DNA of 64,000 nt from contig CANGJJ010000002.1 of NCBI GenBank assembly GCA_947454485.1, positions 434,001-498,000 of the forward strand, given 5' to 3'. The translations under genes and the position numbers were made by a program. Positions 4,623 through 41,077 of the stretch are shown here, in pieces (the stretch's first letter is position 1; each line of letters starts with the position of its first letter). Under the pieces are notes generated by a model that made no database searches, had not been told where the DNA came from, and saw only the letters and a program-made list of their open reading frames with translations. Source of the DNA: Beijerinckiaceae bacterium (GTDB taxonomy: Bacteria > Pseudomonadota > Alphaproteobacteria > Rhizobiales > Beijerinckiaceae).

Positions 4623-5588
4623 TCAGGGCGTCAGGCTCGCTGCATAGGCCGCCAGCGCGATCATATCGGAGAGGGGGAGTTTCTCGACCACCCCCGCCAT
4701 CGAACCAGCCTGTTCGCCCGCCCTTTTGCCGATCTTGAAGTCGTTGAGCTGGCGCACGGTATAGCTGGTGTACTGGCCAGCCAGTCGCGGACCAATGCCA
4801 CCCTTCAGCCCCTCTCCATGGCAGGCCACGCAGCCCTCAGCAGCCAGAGCCTTGCCGCGCTCGATGCTGCCGCGCGGCACATAGGCGGTGAAGGTGGTGC
4901 GCGTGTCACGCAGCTCAAAGCGCTCAGGGTCATCCGGCATTTCGATGATGCGCTCGCCCAGCGGCTCGGTCTCCGCGCCCGTCAAGGCTGCGGTAAATAA
5001 GCCCATGTAATTGATTGTCTTTGGCACGATATCCGTCTCAACAACCTTGAGGGTGGAACGTGCTGGAAGGTCGGCAAAATAGCTCGCCCCGGCCTCGATC
5101 TCGTCGTCCGTCAAAGAGGCTGCCATCAGATGCTTGGTGATCATGCTGGCGCGCTGGTCACTGGCCGAGCGCCGAGCGGCTGAGCGGATCTCCTTCAATT
5201 GTCTGATGATATAGCCTTTATCCAGACCGCTGATATTGGCATTTTCCGCGCCGCCCTGTCCTTCCGCGCGGTGGCAGAATGCGCAGGCATGTGTATCTGG
5301 CCTGCGTCCATTCAGAACGATTTGCGGCATCGGCGGGTGACTGGCCGGATGCCAATCAGGCGCATTGAAGCGATCACGCGTCTGGCTCAAGGTCATGCTG
5401 ACCATACTGTCTGGCACCCGCCGCTGCGAGCCGTCATCCTTGGTTGCGGGGACCGGAGCCACGCCGGGCGCAGAGATCTGATAGGCCCAGTGAAGGGGGG
5501 AAGGCTCTTGCGCGGGAAGCTGGACGAAGCTGAGCGGCAGGAGAATGACTGCGAGGCCAAGGGGCTTGATCGCATCAAATAGTTTCAT
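4623..5588 (-). CDS. Exported di-haem cytochrome c
   Basis: A protein of about 321 residues with an N-terminal Sec signal peptide (hydrophobic stretch in the first 25 residues ending near LPAQ) and two c-type haem sites, CAFCH at about residue 105 and CVACH at about residue 250. Each lies in its own cytochrome c fold, like the c4/c553 diheme family. It should be periplasmic and carry electrons. ATG 5588 was chosen because AAGGAA lies seven bases upstream. It stands alone, with no oxidase or dehydrogenase next to it, so its redox partner is unknown. Confidence 0.85.
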   Translation of the reverse strand: MKLFDAIKPLGLAVILLPLSFVQLPAQEPSPLHWAYQISAPGVAPVPATKDDGSQRRVPDSMVSMTLSQTRDRFNAPDWHPASHPPMPQIVLNGRRPDTHACAFCHRAEGQGGAENANISGLDKGYIIRQLKEIRSAARRSASDQRASMITKHLMAASLTDDEIEAGASYFADLPARSTLKVVETDIVPKTINYMGLFTAALTGAETEPLGERIIEMPDDPERFELRDTRTTFTAYVPRGSIERGKALAAEGCVACHGEGLKGGIGPRLAGQYTSYTVRQLNDFKIGKRAGEQAGSMAGVVEKLPLSDMIALAAYAASLTP

Positions 5589-5794
5589 GACAAAATTCCT
5601 TAATTTCAATTATTTAAATCGATATAATTCAGGGGCTGATTGGCCACCCTGCTCAAACGCCACATATCAAACATCCAACACCTAGCGCCGCGCTTGTCGC
5701 CCCGCAACAGATGTTCACTTCAGCCATTGTCTTTCTTGACGAGCCTGAGATGATGGCGCACCGCTGCGTCGCAATGGCAGCGGGTGATAGGGAG

Positions 5795-15227: not shown

Positions 15228-17186
15228 ATGAGCGCCGTTATAGGGTTTTCGACCATCCGCGCCTTGAGGGCGGAGAGCCAGCTACAGCCCGCTATGAAGG
15301 CGTCTGCGTCGCTGCCGGTCAAAACCATCGCCTCCCCCACCAAGAGCGTTCTCATTCGCCTGTCGGCCGAGGCCGTTGCCAAAGCGCAGCCTATGGCGCC
15401 GGCCGCAGATGCGGGCGCGCCCACAGCACTGACTTTCGATGGGACCCGCGCCGGGATTTATGAGCAACAAGCGACCACGGGCCAGATCACACAGGCGAGC
15501 GGCAATAGCGCACAAGCGACGATCACACTGACTGCGGGCAAAACCTATAAGCTCGATTCAGCCTTCGGTTATTCTTATGCCGGCACAAAGCCGACGCTGA
15601 AATTGAGTTTGATCGACGCGAATGGAAAAGTGGTTGCTACCAGCACAACCCCTGACAAGGCCCTGCAGGTCGCGATCAAAACAACTGGCACCTATACGTT
15701 GCAACTAGAGGTCTCCAACGCGAAGGGAAAAGTCGCCAACAATGCGACCCTGACGGCCTATCAGATGAATGTGCATGAGCTTAAACCAAAGCTGCCTGCA
15801 TCATCTGGCAACACCAATGTCAACGCGGTACTCAGTGGCAGTTGGTGGCATGATTTGGGTGCGGTTGCCTCTGCCCCCGTCGACCCCACCAAGAAAATCA
15901 CTGATGGTCTTTATTCGCTGACAACCAGCAGCGCGAAACACACCGTGACTTATAGCTTCCTCGATAGTTCCAGCTATTCCTGGCTGAGCGCGACGGACAA
16001 AAATGGATTTGCTGCGCTCGATGCGGATCAGGAAAGCGCGGTCAAAAAAGCCTTCGATTATCTCTCGACCTTGATCAATGTGACATTTGAAGAAGCGACC
16101 TCCGTCGACAGTGCGGACATTAGTTTTGGCATGAATGATCAAACAGCCAGTGCGGGCTATGCGCTCTATCCGCATGCCAATGGCTCCAATCCCTCCGTGC
16201 TGATGCTGGATAACAGCAACAATCCGGGCAATGCAGGTGCAAGTCTCGGGACAGCAGGAACTTATGGCTGGGAAACCCTCGTCCATGAAGTTGGGCACAC
16301 ATTGGGCCTCAAACATCCGGGAAATTACAATGCAGGCGGCGGAACAACGCCGGGGCCATATTTGCCTGCAGCAACGGACAACCGTCGCATGTCACTCATG
16401 TCCTACAATAATCCGACCGATGGTTATCAAATCAACGCCACGGCTACGAGCGCGACGGGTTACAGCTATTCTGCATCGCCGGTAAATCCCTTAACTCTTG
16501 GGGTCTATGACATTGCGGCCCTGCAGTATTTATATGGCGCCAAGACTGACACGACGACATCGACAGCTCTTACCCTCGCCGACGGATATCAGAATATCCA
16601 GACGATATGGGCGCCCAAGGGTATTGCTGTGGATGCCAGCAGCACGACGCGGTCAAACATTTTTGACTTGCGAGGAGGCGCCTATAGTTCCGTGGCGATC
16701 CGCACCTCTGCAGATGCCCTCGCCGATGTCACTCAACAACTCACCGGTACAATGTCTGCGGCGACCGCTGGTGTCGCAGCCAAGTCGATCATGTCAGCCA
16801 AGTCGACCATTGGCACTGCGACAGGTGGCACCAAGCAAGTCGCAAACAGTGCACTTTATTACACCGGCAAAAATGATCTTGGTCTCGCCTATGGAAGCTC
16901 CATGACCAGCGTGACAGGCGGTAAGGCAGCGGACAGTTTTTATGCCAGCCGATATTCAACGACCTTGGATGGTGGAGATGGAGCCGACACAGTCTATCTG
17001 ACAGGCGCAGCGGCTGACTGGAAAATTGGAACCAAGGCTTTGACCGGCACAAAAGGTAGTTTCAACTATGGTTCCGACGCCAGTGTGACTTTGACCAATG
17101 CGAAAACCAATGCACAGATCACGGTCAAACAAATCGAGGCCTATGCTTTTTATAATGATCTGACCCTGTCTGTGACGCGGAGCTGA
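15228..17186 (+). CDS. Serralysin-like secreted zinc metalloprotease (M10 family)
   Basis: The 652-residue protein carries the extended zinc motif HEVGHTLGLKHPG at about residues 353-365 and the Met-turn SLMSYN at about 388-393, the hallmarks of serralysins. An N-terminal part of about 200 residues contains a pre-peptidase-C-like beta domain (TITLTAGKTYKLDSAF...). The C-terminus has only one weak RTX-like nonapeptide segment (LDGGDGADTVYL, about 577-590). It has no Sec signal, as usual for type I secreted proteases, but no type I exporter or inhibitor gene lies nearby. ATG 15228 lacks a strong ribosome site. Confidence 0.85.
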   Translation: MSAVIGFSTIRALRAESQLQPAMKASASLPVKTIASPTKSVLIRLSAEAVAKAQPMAPAADAGAPTALTFDGTRAGIYEQQATTGQITQASGNSAQATITLTAGKTYKLDSAFGYSYAGTKPTLKLSLIDANGKVVATSTTPDKALQVAIKTTGTYTLQLEVSNAKGKVANNATLTAYQMNVHELKPKLPASSGNTNVNAVLSGSWWHDLGAVASAPVDPTKKITDGLYSLTTSSAKHTVTYSFLDSSSYSWLSATDKNGFAALDADQESAVKKAFDYLSTLINVTFEEATSVDSADISFGMNDQTASAGYALYPHANGSNPSVLMLDNSNNPGNAGASLGTAGTYGWETLVHEVGHTLGLKHPGNYNAGGGTTPGPYLPAATDNRRMSLMSYNNPTDGYQINATATSATGYSYSASPVNPLTLGVYDIAALQYLYGAKTDTTTSTALTLADGYQNIQTIWAPKGIAVDASSTTRSNIFDLRGGAYSSVAIRTSADALADVTQQLTGTMSAATAGVAAKSIMSAKSTIGTATGGTKQVANSALYYTGKNDLGLAYGSSMTSVTGGKAADSFYASRYSTTLDGGDGADTVYLTGAAADWKIGTKALTGTKGSFNYGSDASVTLTNAKTNAQITVKQIEAYAFYNDLTLSVTRS

Positions 17187-35252: not shown

Positions 35253-36950
35253 ATGTCTGTTCGCTCGAACGGTCCTGCGACCGAATCCGATCCAATTCTC
35301 AGCCGCCGTCGTTTTCTGGGCGCTGGTGCGGCCACAGCCGCCAGCGCAGTGGCAGTGGCGCCTGCCGCTGCAGCCTCAGGTGCCAAAGAGATCGTCTGGG
35401 ACCGCGAGGTCGATGTCATCGTGATTGGTGCAGGCGCGTCCGGTCTTCCTGCTGCCATTGCTGCGCGCGATGGGGGTGCCTCAGTCATTTGCGTTGACCA
35501 CCATTTCGAGACCGGTGGTATTGCGGTCATGAGCGGCGGCGATATTCGTATCGGCGGCGGCAACCGCATTCAAAAGGCAGCGGGCAGCAAAGAAACAGCT
35601 GACGATATTTTCAAGCGCTGGACCGATCCGCTGCAACATCGCTTCGCCGATGCCGATATTGTGCGCCGCTTTGCCGATGAGAATGTCGCAACCTTTGATT
35701 TTCTCGAAGCCAATGGCGTCAACTTTGATCGTCATGGCAGCAATGTACCGCGCCAGTTCCGCCCCGGCATTACCAGCACGCCCGGCATTCGCCCCAATGA
35801 ATGGCCTGTGCGCACGGACAATATTGCGCTTGATCAGGGCCGCAATGGCTCTGGCATTGTGCGCCCGCTGGAACTGAGTGCGCGCGACAAAGGCGTTGAG
35901 TTTTTGCTCTCCTGGACGCTGAATACGATTCATCGTGAAGAGCAATTCGCAGGTCGCGTTCTTGGTGTGCGGATTGAACAAGTGGACCGTTGGTTCCAGC
36001 CGCAGCATCGCTTCCTCAATCTGCGCGCGCGCAAGGCCGTCATTCTGTGCAATGGTGGTCATGGTGCGAATGTGCATTTCCGCCGCATGTTTGATCCGCG
36101 CCTGACGGATGAATATCAGCACCACGGCCAAGCCACCGCCAAAGCCAATGCGGCCGGTGAGATTGCCGCTTTGCAGATCGGTGCAGCGCTAGGCTCTGTC
36201 GGCAATGAAACGGATACAGGAACGGGACAGGCTATCGACAAGGGTCGCCTTGCGGTGCGCGACAATTATGTGCGCGGCAAGATTGGGCCTGAAAGTTCGG
36301 TCTTTTTCCGTCATCGAGCGCTGGGTCTTGATGTCGCCGATTGGCAAGATCTCATTCTCGTCAAAGAAAATGGCCAGCGTTTCTGGAACGAGATTGATGA
36401 TTCCAATGATGGCTATTTTGCCAATGCGCTGAAGCCGACGGGCGATCCCAAAAAGCTCAATGGTGGTGGGCCGATCTGGGCAATCTTTGATTCAGCTGCG
36501 GTCGAGCGCGAGAAATGGCAAACGACCTATCCGCATGTGGATCGTGGTGGCGGCTATTTCTTCAGCGGCGCAACCTTGGAAGAACTCGCAGCTCAGCTGA
36601 AGCGCAATATCTATCAGTGGCGACCTATGCCGGGCGATGCCTTGCGCAAGACGGTCGAGCGATTCAACAGTTTTGTCGTGTCGGGCAAAGATACGGATTT
36701 CAACCGCCCCGCGCCGCCGCACAAGATTGAAAAGCCGCCCTTCTTCGCAGCTTGGGCCACGCCGTGTTTGCATGATTCCTATACGGGCTTGCGTACCGAT
36801 GCCAATTGTCAGGTCATGGATATGCAGGGCAAGCTCATTCCGGGTCTCTTCTGCGCAGGTGAATCGCAGGGCGGCATCAAAAGCCATGGCCTTGGACGCT
36901 GCATCGTCACCGGCCGCGTGGCAGGTATGGAAGCAGCGCGTGCCTCTTGA
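35253..36950 (+). CDS. Tat-exported FAD-dependent oxidoreductase (fumarate-reductase/urocanate-reductase-like flavoprotein)
   Basis: A 565-residue flavoprotein with a twin-arginine signal: SRRRFLGAG at residues 17-25, a hydrophobic Ala-rich stretch and a likely cut near residue 42. The FAD-binding VIVIGAGASGLPAA follows at about residue 57, then GGIAVMSGGDIRIGG, and the closing GLFCAGESQGGIKSHGLGRC. It belongs to the FAD_binding_2 family with succinate dehydrogenase/fumarate reductase flavoproteins and ketosteroid dehydrogenases. AGGGGGG upstream supports ATG 35253. Downstream lie an unknown protein and a c-type cytochrome, likely its electron acceptor. Export with bound FAD through Tat fits this. 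The substrate is unknown. Confidence 0.85.
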   Translation: MSVRSNGPATESDPILSRRRFLGAGAATAASAVAVAPAAAASGAKEIVWDREVDVIVIGAGASGLPAAIAARDGGASVICVDHHFETGGIAVMSGGDIRIGGGNRIQKAAGSKETADDIFKRWTDPLQHRFADADIVRRFADENVATFDFLEANGVNFDRHGSNVPRQFRPGITSTPGIRPNEWPVRTDNIALDQGRNGSGIVRPLELSARDKGVEFLLSWTLNTIHREEQFAGRVLGVRIEQVDRWFQPQHRFLNLRARKAVILCNGGHGANVHFRRMFDPRLTDEYQHHGQATAKANAAGEIAALQIGAALGSVGNETDTGTGQAIDKGRLAVRDNYVRGKIGPESSVFFRHRALGLDVADWQDLILVKENGQRFWNEIDDSNDGYFANALKPTGDPKKLNGGGPIWAIFDSAAVEREKWQTTYPHVDRGGGYFFSGATLEELAAQLKRNIYQWRPMPGDALRKTVERFNSFVVSGKDTDFNRPAPPHKIEKPPFFAAWATPCLHDSYTGLRTDANCQVMDMQGKLIPGLFCAGESQGGIKSHGLGRCIVTGRVAGMEAARAS

Positions 36951-36983
36951 TCATTATGCGCCGTCCTCCGGGGCGGCGCATCC

Positions 36984-37973
36984 ATGGTTGATCCGATGAA
37001 AGATACGGCGTCCTTTCCTCTCGTACTCGATCTTGTATCCCCGCCGACGCAAGTCGATGCGGATTGCCTCTTCACGCTTGCTGTCGCGCTTGAATGTGAC
37101 GCGCCTTGTGATCTGTCGAGCGTGACCTATGAGCTGCACAGCGGCGAGAATCTCATCGGACAAGGTGTGCTTGGACCCATCCTGCGATTTGATCCTGACT
37201 CGCCTGATTATGATCCGCGCAACGGGCCTGTCGAAAAACGTGATCAGATTTTTCTCTCAGCGCGCGCACCCAAAGCGCTGGGTCATTTTGAATGGCACAT
37301 CGTCATTCCGGCTCAGTCTGTAGGTGATATTGCGATTGAGGCGACGCAGATTGATTTTGCGGCCACGACCTCCATTCATCAAACAAGTCTCGCGGTCTGG
37401 GATGTACCGGCGCCCGTTCAGCCCGGACAAAAAATGCGCATTTCAATTGGAGCCAAATGTTCGGCAGGCTGCGATCTTGGTGGCCTTTCCATGCGCATTT
37501 TAAATCAAGGAGCAGGTGTTGCGACCGGCACATTGAGCGCGCTTCATCCCCAGATGGAGGGTCTGTGGTGCGGCGAGGTGGAACTTGATGCACCCATCAC
37601 GCTTGGCCTCGCAGAATTTGATGTGAGCTTTGCGCCGGGTGATCCGCGCGGTCTGCCGCATAGTGCTGCGCAAGCCAGCTTTAGCACGATCGTTGATGCA
37701 CCGCCCGATCATGATGTGGCTGTGGCGATAGTCGATCGTGAAACTGGTGCACCTGTCGAAGAGGCTCATATACGCCTTGGACTGCAACGTGTCTCCACCG
37801 ATATGACAGGGCGTGTCATCATTCCCGCACCGCGCGGCGAACATCGTTTGTTTGTCTGGAAAGCGGGTTTCGAAATCCCCGAACAAATGATTTTGGTTGA
37901 TCAAGATCTCAATATCACTGTGCAAGCCAAAGCGCTGCCCGTCAAAAATCCTTACGACAGATGGCAAGGATAA
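36984..37973 (+). CDS. Unknown beta-rich protein with C-terminal carboxypeptidase-regulatory-like domain
   Basis: A 329-residue protein of mostly beta-strand character. Two immunoglobulin-like stretches (about 10-130 and 135-235) precede a short domain (about 245-310, VAIVDRETGAPVEEAHIRLGLQRVSTDMTGRV) that has the pattern of a carboxypeptidase regulatory-like or transthyretin-like fold. No signal peptide is seen, which is odd for a partner of two exported proteins; it may be cytoplasmic or its start may lie elsewhere. It is encoded 33 bases after the flavoprotein and 9 bases before the cytochrome, so it should belong to the same operon. I recognise no named family. Confidence 0.7.
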   Translation: MVDPMKDTASFPLVLDLVSPPTQVDADCLFTLAVALECDAPCDLSSVTYELHSGENLIGQGVLGPILRFDPDSPDYDPRNGPVEKRDQIFLSARAPKALGHFEWHIVIPAQSVGDIAIEATQIDFAATTSIHQTSLAVWDVPAPVQPGQKMRISIGAKCSAGCDLGGLSMRILNQGAGVATGTLSALHPQMEGLWCGEVELDAPITLGLAEFDVSFAPGDPRGLPHSAAQASFSTIVDAPPDHDVAVAIVDRETGAPVEEAHIRLGLQRVSTDMTGRVIIPAPRGEHRLFVWKAGFEIPEQMILVDQDLNITVQAKALPVKNPYDRWQG

Positions 37974-37982
37974 GGAGACCTC

Positions 37983-38372
37983 ATGTATTTTAAGACAGGA
38001 CTTTTTATAACACTCTTCATGACGGGAAGCGCATTGGCGAATCCCACTTTTACGAGTGAAGAAGCCAAGCGCGGTGAAGCGCTCTACAATTCCAAATGCT
38101 CGTCTTGTCACGGCCGCGAATTAATCGCCAAAGGTGATCCGCCAAGTCTGACGGGCGAGCAATTTGGCAATGGCTGGTTTAACAAGAGCCTTGCGGATCG
38201 CTTCTCGGCGATCAAAGAATCCATGCCGCCCAATGATGCTGGCAATCTGCCCGACCGTGATGTGCTCGACATCATCGCCTATATTTTGAAGTTCAATGGC
38301 TATGCGGCAGGCGCGACGCCATTGCCGACACAACCTGCTGCCATGGATGGCGTGAAGATTTCGCCGAAATAA
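37983..38372 (+). CDS. Exported mono-haem cytochrome c
   Basis: A 129-residue protein with a signal peptide (cleavage near SALA, residue 19) and one haem site CSSCHGR at about residue 39. A probable axial methionine lies in SMPPND (about residue 80), the class I cytochrome c layout. AAGGAG upstream gives ATG 37983. It ends the flavoprotein operon and faces a second cytochrome gene of the opposite operon across a terminator. Confidence 0.9.
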   Translation: MYFKTGLFITLFMTGSALANPTFTSEEAKRGEALYNSKCSSCHGRELIAKGDPPSLTGEQFGNGWFNKSLADRFSAIKESMPPNDAGNLPDRDVLDIIAYILKFNGYAAGATPLPTQPAAMDGVKISPK

Positions 38373-38441: not shown

Positions 38442-38786
38442 TCAGGGATTGAGCAGCTTGATCGTCTTGGGGTCTGCAGGTGCCGGGATCGACTGGAGAT
38501 AGGCATAGATATCTTCCAGATCGCCGTCTGACAGAATCTTCTTTGAGAAGGGCGGCATGGCACCGCTGGTTTCACGAACGAAGTTGTTCAACGCTTCATA
38601 GGGCAACTGCGTACGTTGCAGAACAGGCCCTGCGACGCCGCCTTGTCCCTGATAGCCGTGGCACTGCCAGCAGCCATTCTTTTCGAAAGCGACTTTACCC
38701 TTCTTCGCATCGCCTGCCGCATAAGCAGCAGAGGAGAGAGCAAGAAGGCTGATCGCAGCGGCGGTGATGATCTTGGTCATGCGCAT
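38442..38786 (-). CDS. Exported mono-haem cytochrome c, partner of the ThDP enzyme
   Basis: A 114-residue protein with a signal peptide (cleavage near AYAA, residue 23), haem site CWQCHGYQGQG at about residue 39 and a probable methionine ligand in GAMPPFS. AAGGAG upstream supports ATG 38786. Its start lies 12 bases after the stop of the Tat-exported thiamine-diphosphate enzyme on the same strand, so the two are almost certainly co-transcribed. It is the likely electron acceptor of that enzyme. Confidence 0.9.
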   Translation of the reverse strand: MRMTKIITAAAISLLALSSAAYAAGDAKKGKVAFEKNGCWQCHGYQGQGGVAGPVLQRTQLPYEALNNFVRETSGAMPPFSKKILSDGDLEDIYAYLQSIPAPADPKTIKLLNP

Positions 38787-38798
38787 TGTTGCGTCTCC

Positions 38799-40751
38799 TT
38801 AGCGCGGCTGCGTCCAAACATTGAGAAGGGCAGGCTGGCCTGACTTCACGACAGCAATGGCTTCGCGAATAGCGGGGCCAAGCTGTGCAGGATCCTTGAT
38901 CGGACCCTTCGCCCACCAGCCCATGGACTCTGCGAGCTTGTGATATTCGACATCCGGATTCTGGATCATAGTGCCGACCGGGCCGTCATCGCCGCCATAG
39001 TTGGACGGACGATTGCGGAAGCTGGCCATGCGCTGGATATGCATGACCTCCTGATGCCATGCACGGTTGTTGTGCATGATGGAGAGCATCGGGATCTTGT
39101 GCTTGGCGGCTGTCCAAAGAACGCCCGGAGCAAACATCAAGTCACCATCCGATTGGATCGAGACTGAGAAGCGGCCAAGATCGCGATTGGCGAGCGCAGC
39201 GCCCACAGATGCCGGTGCGCCATAACCAACGCCATAGCCGCCTGAGCGGCCGAGCCAGTGATGGTGCTTATCCATCTTCCACAAACGGTTCGGCCAGTTG
39301 CTGACATTGCCTTCAGAGGCAACAAGTGACCAGTCGAGATCCTTGATCTGCGCATAAAGCTCCATGCACATACGCGCGGTGGAAATGGGGCTTGCGTCCC
39401 ATGCGAGGCTTGCAGCAGCAAGCTCGCGCGCGCGGATATCTTCACGAACCTTCTTGGCGCGCTCGCCGCGCTGGGCAATCGCATTTTTGCGATCAGCGGT
39501 CAGTTCCGACTTCACTGCCTCGATAAGCGCAGGCAAGGTCGCCTCCGCATCGGCTGGCATCGAAATATCGACTGACTGGAAGCGCTGGAAGTCCTGGTAA
39601 TTAGACTTGGTCAGCAGTTCGACAGAGGAGATGCTAATCAGCTTCGCAGTGGCCTTGGCGCGTGTGCCATTGATGCCAATGCCGTGAACGCCGTTATCTG
39701 TATAAGTGTTCACGACACCCCAGAAGTCGGACAATTCAAGACCCATGATGACGTCAGCCTGCGCCACCGCTCCAAGTGGGCGCGCAAGATGATGCATATT
39801 GGGGAAGTTCATGCGATTGCCCTGATCGACAACCGAGCATTGCAGCAGTTCAGCCAGCTCAACGAGCAGGCCAACACCCTTGGGCGTGCGAGCTGCACGA
39901 TCAGCGACGATGACCGGATTTTCTGCATTCACCAACATGCGCGCTGCATCTTTCACCGCGCCCATTTCGCCAGCAGGCGGCGAGGGCATGGTGAATTTGG
40001 GAATGTAGAGATTCTTGCCAGCAGCAATCGGCTCTTGCTGCAAGCCAGCATCGAGCGAGATCGAGACCGGGCCATAGGGCGGGGTCATCGCGATCTTGTA
40101 GCCACGCACCATGGTCTGCGCGAAAGCTTGCAAGGTCGTGGGCGTATCATCCCACTTCGTATAGTCGCGCACGATGGCATTGATGTCTTGCGCGGAATGG
40201 AAGGTCGGCACGCCGGGAGGGCGCGTCGCTGCATCCATATCATTGCCGCCGATGATGATGACGGGCACGCGATCGCAATAGGCGTTGTAGATCGCCATGG
40301 TCGCATGCTGCAGACCCACCGTGCCATGCACCATGGTCATCAGCGGCTTGCCGGTGATCTTGAAATAGCCATGCGCCATGCCGACGCCCGACTCTTCATG
40401 CATGCAACTCAGATATTCCGGCGCTTTGTTCTCGCCGTAATTGATCAGAGACTCATGCAGAGCGCGGAATGAGGATGCGCAGTTCGAGGGCGTATATTTG
40501 AAGTCGAGTGTCTTCATCACATCGACCATGAAGTCCGACCCGGGCTTGCCGCCCAAGCGGTTGATCTCGCCGGGCGTACCAGTCTCGGCGGCGATCTGCG
40601 TCACGGTCGGCGGCAGGGCCGAAGGGACTTGACGGGGTGCTGCGCCCTGAGCGGCTGCAGGCGTGGCAATGGCGGGGGCGACGCCGGCGATGGCGGCCCC
40701 GGTCAGAAATTTACGGCGGTTCGGGCCGTCCTTGGCTGTGTCTTCACTCAT
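38799..40751 (-). CDS. Tat-exported thiamine-diphosphate-dependent enzyme (acetolactate-synthase-like)
   Basis: A 650-residue protein with a twin-arginine signal (NRRKFLTGAAIAG at residues 11-23; likely cut near AAAQG, residue 35). It has the three domains of the acetolactate synthase/benzoylformate decarboxylase superfamily. HEESGVGMAHGY carries the cofactor-activating Glu (about residue 119), and QSDGDLMFAPGVLWTA...HNN is the cofactor-binding motif, with Ser where the first Gly of GDG is usual. Family members are cytoplasmic, so export is unusual; ThDP would be loaded before Tat transport. GGGAGGA upstream supports ATG 40751. With the cytochrome gene behind it, it may oxidise or decarboxylate a 2-oxo acid or aldehyde in the periplasm. 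Confidence 0.85.
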   Translation of the reverse strand: MSEDTAKDGPNRRKFLTGAAIAGVAPAIATPAAAQGAAPRQVPSALPPTVTQIAAETGTPGEINRLGGKPGSDFMVDVMKTLDFKYTPSNCASSFRALHESLINYGENKAPEYLSCMHEESGVGMAHGYFKITGKPLMTMVHGTVGLQHATMAIYNAYCDRVPVIIIGGNDMDAATRPPGVPTFHSAQDINAIVRDYTKWDDTPTTLQAFAQTMVRGYKIAMTPPYGPVSISLDAGLQQEPIAAGKNLYIPKFTMPSPPAGEMGAVKDAARMLVNAENPVIVADRAARTPKGVGLLVELAELLQCSVVDQGNRMNFPNMHHLARPLGAVAQADVIMGLELSDFWGVVNTYTDNGVHGIGINGTRAKATAKLISISSVELLTKSNYQDFQRFQSVDISMPADAEATLPALIEAVKSELTADRKNAIAQRGERAKKVREDIRARELAAASLAWDASPISTARMCMELYAQIKDLDWSLVASEGNVSNWPNRLWKMDKHHHWLGRSGGYGVGYGAPASVGAALANRDLGRFSVSIQSDGDLMFAPGVLWTAAKHKIPMLSIMHNNRAWHQEVMHIQRMASFRNRPSNYGGDDGPVGTMIQNPDVEYHKLAESMGWWAKGPIKDPAQLGPAIREAIAVVKSGQPALLNVWTQPR

Positions 40752-41077
40752 AGGGCTTCCTCCCTTAGGTTTTGCAAGCAGGTAGAACAGATCCAAGTCA
40801 TTGAATCTGTTCGATATTTTAGTTTTCTTGATGATGCGATCTCTGGTGGTCACAAGCCAGGAGAGCCGATGCCGCTCTTATCTCTGTGAGGGCGTTACCC
40901 TCGCGGTGGCGTTGATCCTGCTGGCGCAATGGCCGTCCTCCCCGGTGGTCTTTTCACGACCACTTGAAGGTCATGTTATACGCGGCCGACGCAGAGGCAA
41001 GCCGCATTTGGATCACATGCAGGGCTTGCCGCATCAACATAAGCTTTGCAATGAAGCGACGCATCTCAGGAGACCGC
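40752..41077. promoter_or_regulatory. Intergenic region between the ThDP-enzyme and queC genes
   Basis: This 326-base gap between divergent genes contains no convincing gene; open frames in it are extensions or shadows. It should hold two promoters. No preQ1-type aptamer or clear palindrome was recognised. Confidence 0.4.

Follow-up and report, generated by a model that had tools for sequence, protein, structure and literature searches.

A gene pair for the apparent export of a thiamine-diphosphate enzyme along with a small cytochrome c

To our knowledge, the thiamine-diphosphate (ThDP) enzymes that act on 2-oxo acids are all cytoplasmic, with lipoate/NAD, flavin/quinone or ferredoxin as electron acceptors. 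A locus in the genome of a Beijerinckiaceae bacterium (3.29 Mb, 20 contigs) raises the question of whether such an enzyme can also work outside the cytoplasm with a cytochrome c as its acceptor. The locus lies in a 64,000-nucleotide stretch of this genome, here called the window, and a preliminary description made from its letters had reported a ThDP enzyme with an RRKFLT twin-arginine (Tat) signal whose stop codon lies 12 bases from the start of an exported haem c protein. Both reading frames were found at those positions with Pfam domains above cut-off (TPP_enzyme_N, M and C in the enzyme; Cytochrome_CBB3 and Cytochrom_C in its partner), and the motif and the 12-base gap are as described (Table 1).

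Table 1. Features of the gene pair, in positions of the window
Feature	Position	Strand	Details
ThDP-dependent enzyme, benzoylformate decarboxylase / acetolactate synthase fold, Tat signal	38799..40751	-	650 aa; ATG at 40751, TAA at 38801-38799
Tat signal peptide, ~35-40 residues	40632..40751	-	RRKFLT, then a hydrophobic Ala-rich stretch with AxA sites; end placed by eye
Class I cytochrome c, 114 aa	38442..38786	-	ATG at 38786, end at 38442; CWQCH, conserved Met in MPPF, Sec signal by eye
12-base gap with Shine-Dalgarno-like AAGGAGA	38787..38798	-	AAGGAGA begins inside the ThDP-gene stop codon
D535-G536-D537 of the ThDP/Mg2+ motif	39141..39149	-	codons counted from 40751
N561-N562 of the ThDP/Mg2+ motif	39066-39071	-	codons counted from 40751

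The start codon of the enzyme gene is preceded by GGGAGG and places RRKFLT at residues 12-17; an alternative longer frame begins with a GTG at 40853. The residues that follow RRKFLT form, by eye, an uncharged Ala-rich stretch with AxA sites, and the features of a Tat substrate (an SRRxFLK-like motif, a hydrophobic stretch and a cleavage site) are all present; export of the enzyme by Tat is well supported at the level of predicted signals. Since cells make their ThDP in the cytoplasm, any ThDP enzyme bound for export has to cross the membrane in a folded state, as Tat allows. The host genome encodes TatC and CcmF.

Whether this arrangement extends beyond one genome was addressed in a scan of genome contigs using peptide patterns, with a query alignment made of the window protein, its paralogue and one relative; at least 283 relatives were found and the best 80 were kept. 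Among these best 80 of at least 283 relatives, the N-terminal twin-arginine motif is present in 80/80, and one small cytochrome family is encoded directly behind the enzyme on the same strand in 75/80 (74 within 700 bases, together with L064, where the match starts 16 bases before the enzyme ends; L numbers denote loci and G numbers genomes). The combination of Tat signal and adjoining cytochrome that the preliminary description had noted is thus found again in nearly all of these homologues. Among the other genes of these loci that reach 600 bases, by comparison, just 6/435 are followed by an open frame with a CXXCH motif, and the same cruder filter recovers 68/80 members of the family in this best-80 set of at least 283. 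Because the motif occurs in 80/80 and the cytochrome in 75/80 against 6/435 in the controls, the pairing is by these counts far beyond chance. The median gap between the two genes is 12 bases (range -23 to 147; 68 pairs with script-chosen start codons), and four of the 68 measured cytochromes carry two CXXCH motifs.

The same counts bear on the reading that the enzyme is cytoplasmic and its twin arginine a coincidence. A motif alone is no proof of export, but its presence in every member of the best 80 of at least 283 relatives, its absence from all 23 more distant relatives described below, and its pattern of conservation make this reading very improbable: R12, R13 and F15 are invariant in 61/61 rows of an alignment (A2), with L, M or I as the next residue, while the remainder of the N-terminal region is mostly variable.

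The five loci of the best 80 (of at least 283 relatives) at which no cytochrome of the family lies behind the enzyme are L081, L082, L089, L092 and L105. At L081, L082 and L089, an open frame of ~500 aa with a signal-like start stands in the cytochrome's place behind the ThDP gene.

A second sample was drawn by whole-genome searches without patterns, in which the best few candidates per genome were scored, and comprised 24 loci (L111-L134). At 22 of these, with 44-84% identity, the Tat motif is present in 22/22 and the cytochrome in 20/22. The preliminary description had named the lack of both in most close homologues as evidence that would count against it; this is not what was seen, the great majority above 44% identity carrying both. 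Apparent repeats of the first sample account for 12 of the 22 genes (four of them by construction and eight because their identity values match), and the ten new genes have the motif in 10/10 and the cytochrome in 9/10. The two loci without a cytochrome, L117 and L125, are both in genome G1036, and L125 is identical with L092, which is already among the five listed above. G1036 contains three Tat ThDP copies (L117, L125 and L127), only L127 being backed by a cytochrome of this family; the single cytochrome is perhaps shared by the other two copies. The remaining two loci of the second sample, at 37-39% identity, have neither Tat motif nor cytochrome.

The same division appears in 27 further loci. 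All four at 41-52% identity (the paralogue L002, L009, L107 on a Caballeronia plasmid and L108 on a Novosphingobium plasmid) have both Tat motif and cytochrome, and all 23 at 26-38% identity lack both. Export signal and cytochrome are, as far as the genes indicate, present or absent together, and there is good support for regarding Tat export of the ThDP enzyme, with a cytochrome c of its own, as a predicted trait of the family. The genome of the window itself encodes two Tat ThDP genes, and a search for the cytochrome at E 1e-3 returns two matches, one behind each.

This bears on a further reading, in which the cytochrome is co-transcribed with the enzyme yet is no electron partner of it and may instead be a general periplasmic carrier. 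Its ordinary class I fold and its absence behind 5/80 enzymes (the best 80 of at least 283 relatives) would fit such a role, but the placing of the window genome's two cytochromes, each behind one enzyme, and the retention of the pairing in both Proteobacteria and Acidobacteriota argue for a dedicated partner, and we regard a general carrier as improbable.

Phylogenetic evidence is consistent with a single exported group. A 57-row maximum-likelihood tree, for which 30 of the 80 kept relatives were taken, places the 35 exported rows (L108 included) together behind a branch with support 97/90. Distances among the ThDP enzymes and among the cytochromes correlate with r 0.80 over 75 pairs, with 0/2000 permutations as high (maximum 0.21); a high correlation is also expected from linked inheritance alone, and part of it must stem from that source. 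The enzyme has its nearest relatives in metagenome-assembled Beijerinckiaceae, and carriers of the pair also include metagenome-assembled Comamonadaceae and Acidobacteriota, the pairing having been seen in the phyla Proteobacteria and Acidobacteriota. One carrier, Limnohabitans sp. 15K (L041), is apparently a cultured isolate. Few genomes match per class, phylum or order sample, and the distribution of the module is therefore sporadic. In the window's class, 10/385 genomes match at E 1e-100 (best few candidates per genome scored), and among those ten, exported members were found only in the window's genome and G140; the other eight hold 16 matches of 34-39% identity with neither motif nor cytochrome. 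In the phylum of the window, 1/398 genomes matches at E 1e-180, namely the window's own. Counting the centre genome in each case, 11/297 genomes match at E 1e-150 in the Acidobacteriota (the phylum of L075) and 6/300 in the order of a Limnohabitans locus.

The enzyme belongs to the known superfamily of ThDP decarboxylases and oxidases, and its domains and motifs identify it as a ThDP-dependent protein of the TPP_enzyme N-M-C type, with the predicted cofactor residues Glu119 (60/61 rows of alignment A2), DGD (61/61) and NN (60/61). Its best sequence-profile matches are to benzoylformate decarboxylase (BFD), and its nearest solved relatives by sequence are BFD and benzaldehyde lyase, both non-oxidative enzymes. 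Ser93, Glu119 and His142 align with the active-site residues Ser26, Glu47 and His70 of BFD, of which Ser26 and His70 have a role in decarboxylation. Ser93 is kept in 59/61 rows, Glu119 in 60/61 and His142 in 61/61 (alignment A2), while at L009, outside that alignment, His142 is replaced by Gln. The preliminary description had called the enzyme acetolactate-synthase-like, which fits only loosely: acetohydroxyacid synthases score equally with BFD in fold comparison, but both the leading profile matches and the active-site alignment point to benzoylformate decarboxylase. The BFD-like active site suggests a 2-oxo acid as the substrate.

Identity to BFD of Pseudomonas putida (PDB 1bfd and variants) is only ~21%, and the enzyme here differs from BFD in its Tat signal, its cytochrome c partner and the family-specific residues 566-573. 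The scores against four NCBIfam models lie below the cut-offs: the BFD model PRK07092 gave 140.1 bits (cut-off 493), the acetolactate / acetohydroxyacid synthase model TIGR00118 106.9 bits (538.35), the pyruvate oxidase model PRK08611 64.0 bits (742) and PRK08327, a 'thiamine pyrophosphate-requiring protein', 222.1 bits (456). PRK08327 and a set of cytosolic relatives at ~31-39% identity are the closest sequence relatives outside the exported group. These cytosolic relatives differ from it in having no Tat motif and no cytochrome behind the gene (21 of 23 rows; the other two rows are more distant and likewise lack them), and in 16/20 cytosolic sisters Ala occupies the position of Ser93 of the exported rows. 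Beside the Mg-binding NN, residues 566-568, 570 and 573 are conserved to 95% or more across 85 exported rows, and none of 20 cytosolic sisters has them, as though the exported group had re-tuned its active site. Pyruvate:quinone oxidoreductase, or pyruvate oxidase, differs from the enzyme here in that it works on the cytoplasmic side with FAD and a quinone acceptor. The acetohydroxyacid synthases are flavin-containing.

The active site and the fold also bear on what kind of reaction the enzyme would catalyse. Cyclohexane-1,2-dione hydrolase and acetoin cleavage are models of oxidative C-C cleavage, and the enzyme could in the same way cleave an alpha-hydroxyketone or a 1,2-diketone, with cytochrome c as the acceptor in place of flavin or NAD. 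The general ThDP machinery kept in the active site and the tied scores of the acetohydroxyacid synthase fold and BFD would allow this. Ser93 and His142 nevertheless align with BFD residues that have a role in decarboxylation, and no neighbouring gene points to diketones, so that such a cleavage is an unlikely alternative to the oxidation of a 2-oxo acid.

The partner protein has the marks of a class I cytochrome c: a CXXCH motif, Met as sixth ligand and a small helical fold. All 56 aligned rows keep Cys39, Cys42, His43 and Met77. When the single sequence is compared with the PDB, the top match is to the cytochrome subunit of p-cresol methylhydroxylase (E 6.4e-7), an enzyme in which a dehydrogenase hands electrons to its bound cytochrome. 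Because the family profile ranks cytochrome bc1-type domains first and p-cresol methylhydroxylase only eleventh, and because the predicted model (pLDDT 75.3) has a general class I cytochrome fold that does not favour p-cresol methylhydroxylase over others, the resemblance is only a hint. Dehydrogenases of the p-cresol methylhydroxylase type likewise own a small His/Met cytochrome c subunit, but their cofactor is FAD and their catalytic subunit is unrelated, whereas the catalytic protein here is a ThDP-dependent TPP_enzyme protein.

The genes around the pair were compared by clustering 2702 frames of at least 110 aa from 81 loci, with the identity of each neighbour taken from a Pfam scan of one representative and UbiX recognised by eye. 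One neighbour is common, the cytochrome itself, at 62/81 loci in this length-limited count. TctC/Bug binding proteins come next (77 members in 34 loci) and were rejected as a substrate lead, being background: a search of just the window genome gives 118 matches to TctC. With most of these TctC/Bug matches over cut-off in a genome of 3.29 Mb, solute-binding proteins of this family are strongly expanded. UbiD-UbiX, amidohydrolase, aldolase, YkuD, TonB receptor, altronate-dehydratase-type and second ThDP neighbours each occur at only some of the loci, and since neighbours vary by lineage, no substrate is indicated. At L042, L043, L046, L048, L053 and L054, UbiD-/UbiX-like genes lie upstream of the pair on the same strand (UbiD assigned by a Pfam scan of the L053 copy only, UbiX by eye). 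At L045, L049, L050 and L052, a second ThDP enzyme of 558 aa with no sign of export, assigned by a Pfam scan of the L045 copy only, lies directly behind the pair on the same strand.

The neighbourhoods also bear on the strongest rival account, in which the enzyme is a non-oxidative periplasmic decarboxylase or lyase that makes an aldehyde, and the cytochrome serves another periplasmic dehydrogenase that oxidises the product. The non-oxidative chemistry of the nearest solved relatives speaks for such a division of labour, but clustering of the neighbouring frames (at least 110 aa) revealed no second dehydrogenase that recurs beside the pair from locus to locus, and only the cytochrome is nearly constant (75/80 in the best 80 of at least 283 relatives). 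We consider this account unlikely, though less so than the other alternatives.

The predicted export of a ThDP enzyme by Tat together with a near-constant cytochrome c points to the periplasmic oxidation of 2-oxo acids or related compounds. We think it rather probable that the pair is a periplasmic ThDP dehydrogenase for 2-oxo acids (or related substrates) that passes two electrons to its own cytochrome c. The basis of this proposal is what can be read in the sequence, namely the Tat signal, the ThDP motifs, the cytochrome and the fixed pairing; from these we infer actual export, an oxidative reaction, direct transfer to haem and the class of substrate. The enzyme would fold and load ThDP/Mg2+ in the cytoplasm and cross the membrane via Tat, while the cytochrome would cross unfolded by Sec and be supplied with haem by the Ccm system. 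Once in the periplasm, the enzyme would bind a 2-oxo acid, or else a ketone or aldehyde of related structure, which would be decarboxylated or cleaved on ThDP in the BFD-like site formed by Ser93, Glu119 and His142. Two one-electron oxidations would convert the enamine to acyl-ThDP, from which water would free the acid, and the electrons would pass to the enzyme's own docked cytochrome c and on to a terminal oxidase. Decarboxylation of a 2-oxo acid would in this way yield an acid, CO2 and two reduced cytochromes. In pyruvate:ferredoxin oxidoreductase, electrons pass from a ThDP intermediate to an iron centre, and we know of no precedent for the direct oxidation of a ThDP enamine by haem c. The further step, that the pair represents a new class of respiratory dehydrogenase in which an exocytoplasmic ThDP enamine is oxidised directly by a dedicated haem c without flavin, NAD, lipoate, quinone or iron-sulfur cluster, is accordingly put forward as a tentative possibility.

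Among the matches listed in an open-access library, no description was found of an exported ThDP enzyme or of a ThDP enzyme with a cytochrome partner. A 2018 review of oxidoreductases with cytochrome domains or subunits gives their cofactors as flavins, PQQ, haem, iron-sulfur and molybdenum, and names p-cresol methylhydroxylase as a cytochrome-carrying flavoenzyme; thiamine does not occur in the main text of that review (PMC6472588). A two-gene unit found in at least two bacterial phyla appears to export a ThDP enzyme along with a small cytochrome c and suggests an undescribed route of electrons from organic acids straight into respiration. Direct reduction of the haem, if true, would establish a new class of respiratory dehydrogenase and widen the set of cofactors that feed cytochrome c, and cells could then oxidise 2-oxo acids without importing them. 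The pair offers a named, testable enzyme system for uncultured bacteria and a way to learn whether haem can be reduced directly by a ThDP enamine. For annotation, genes labelled 'thiamine pyrophosphate-binding protein' can be separated into exported and cytosolic forms by their N-terminus and neighbour.

Convergent to the pair, at 35253-38372 (+), lie genes for another Tat-type oxidoreductase (FAD_binding_2, SRRRFLGAG), for a protein of 329 aa and for a further small cytochrome c (CSSCH); these three are not companions of the pair in the 80 other loci, where only weak matches were seen (L093, L099 and L078). A protein encoded at 15228-17186 (+) contains HEVGHTLGLKHPG, the zinc motif known from serralysin-like metalloproteases. 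At 4623-5609 (-), a 328-aa protein with two CXXCH motifs is probably a two-haem cytochrome c.
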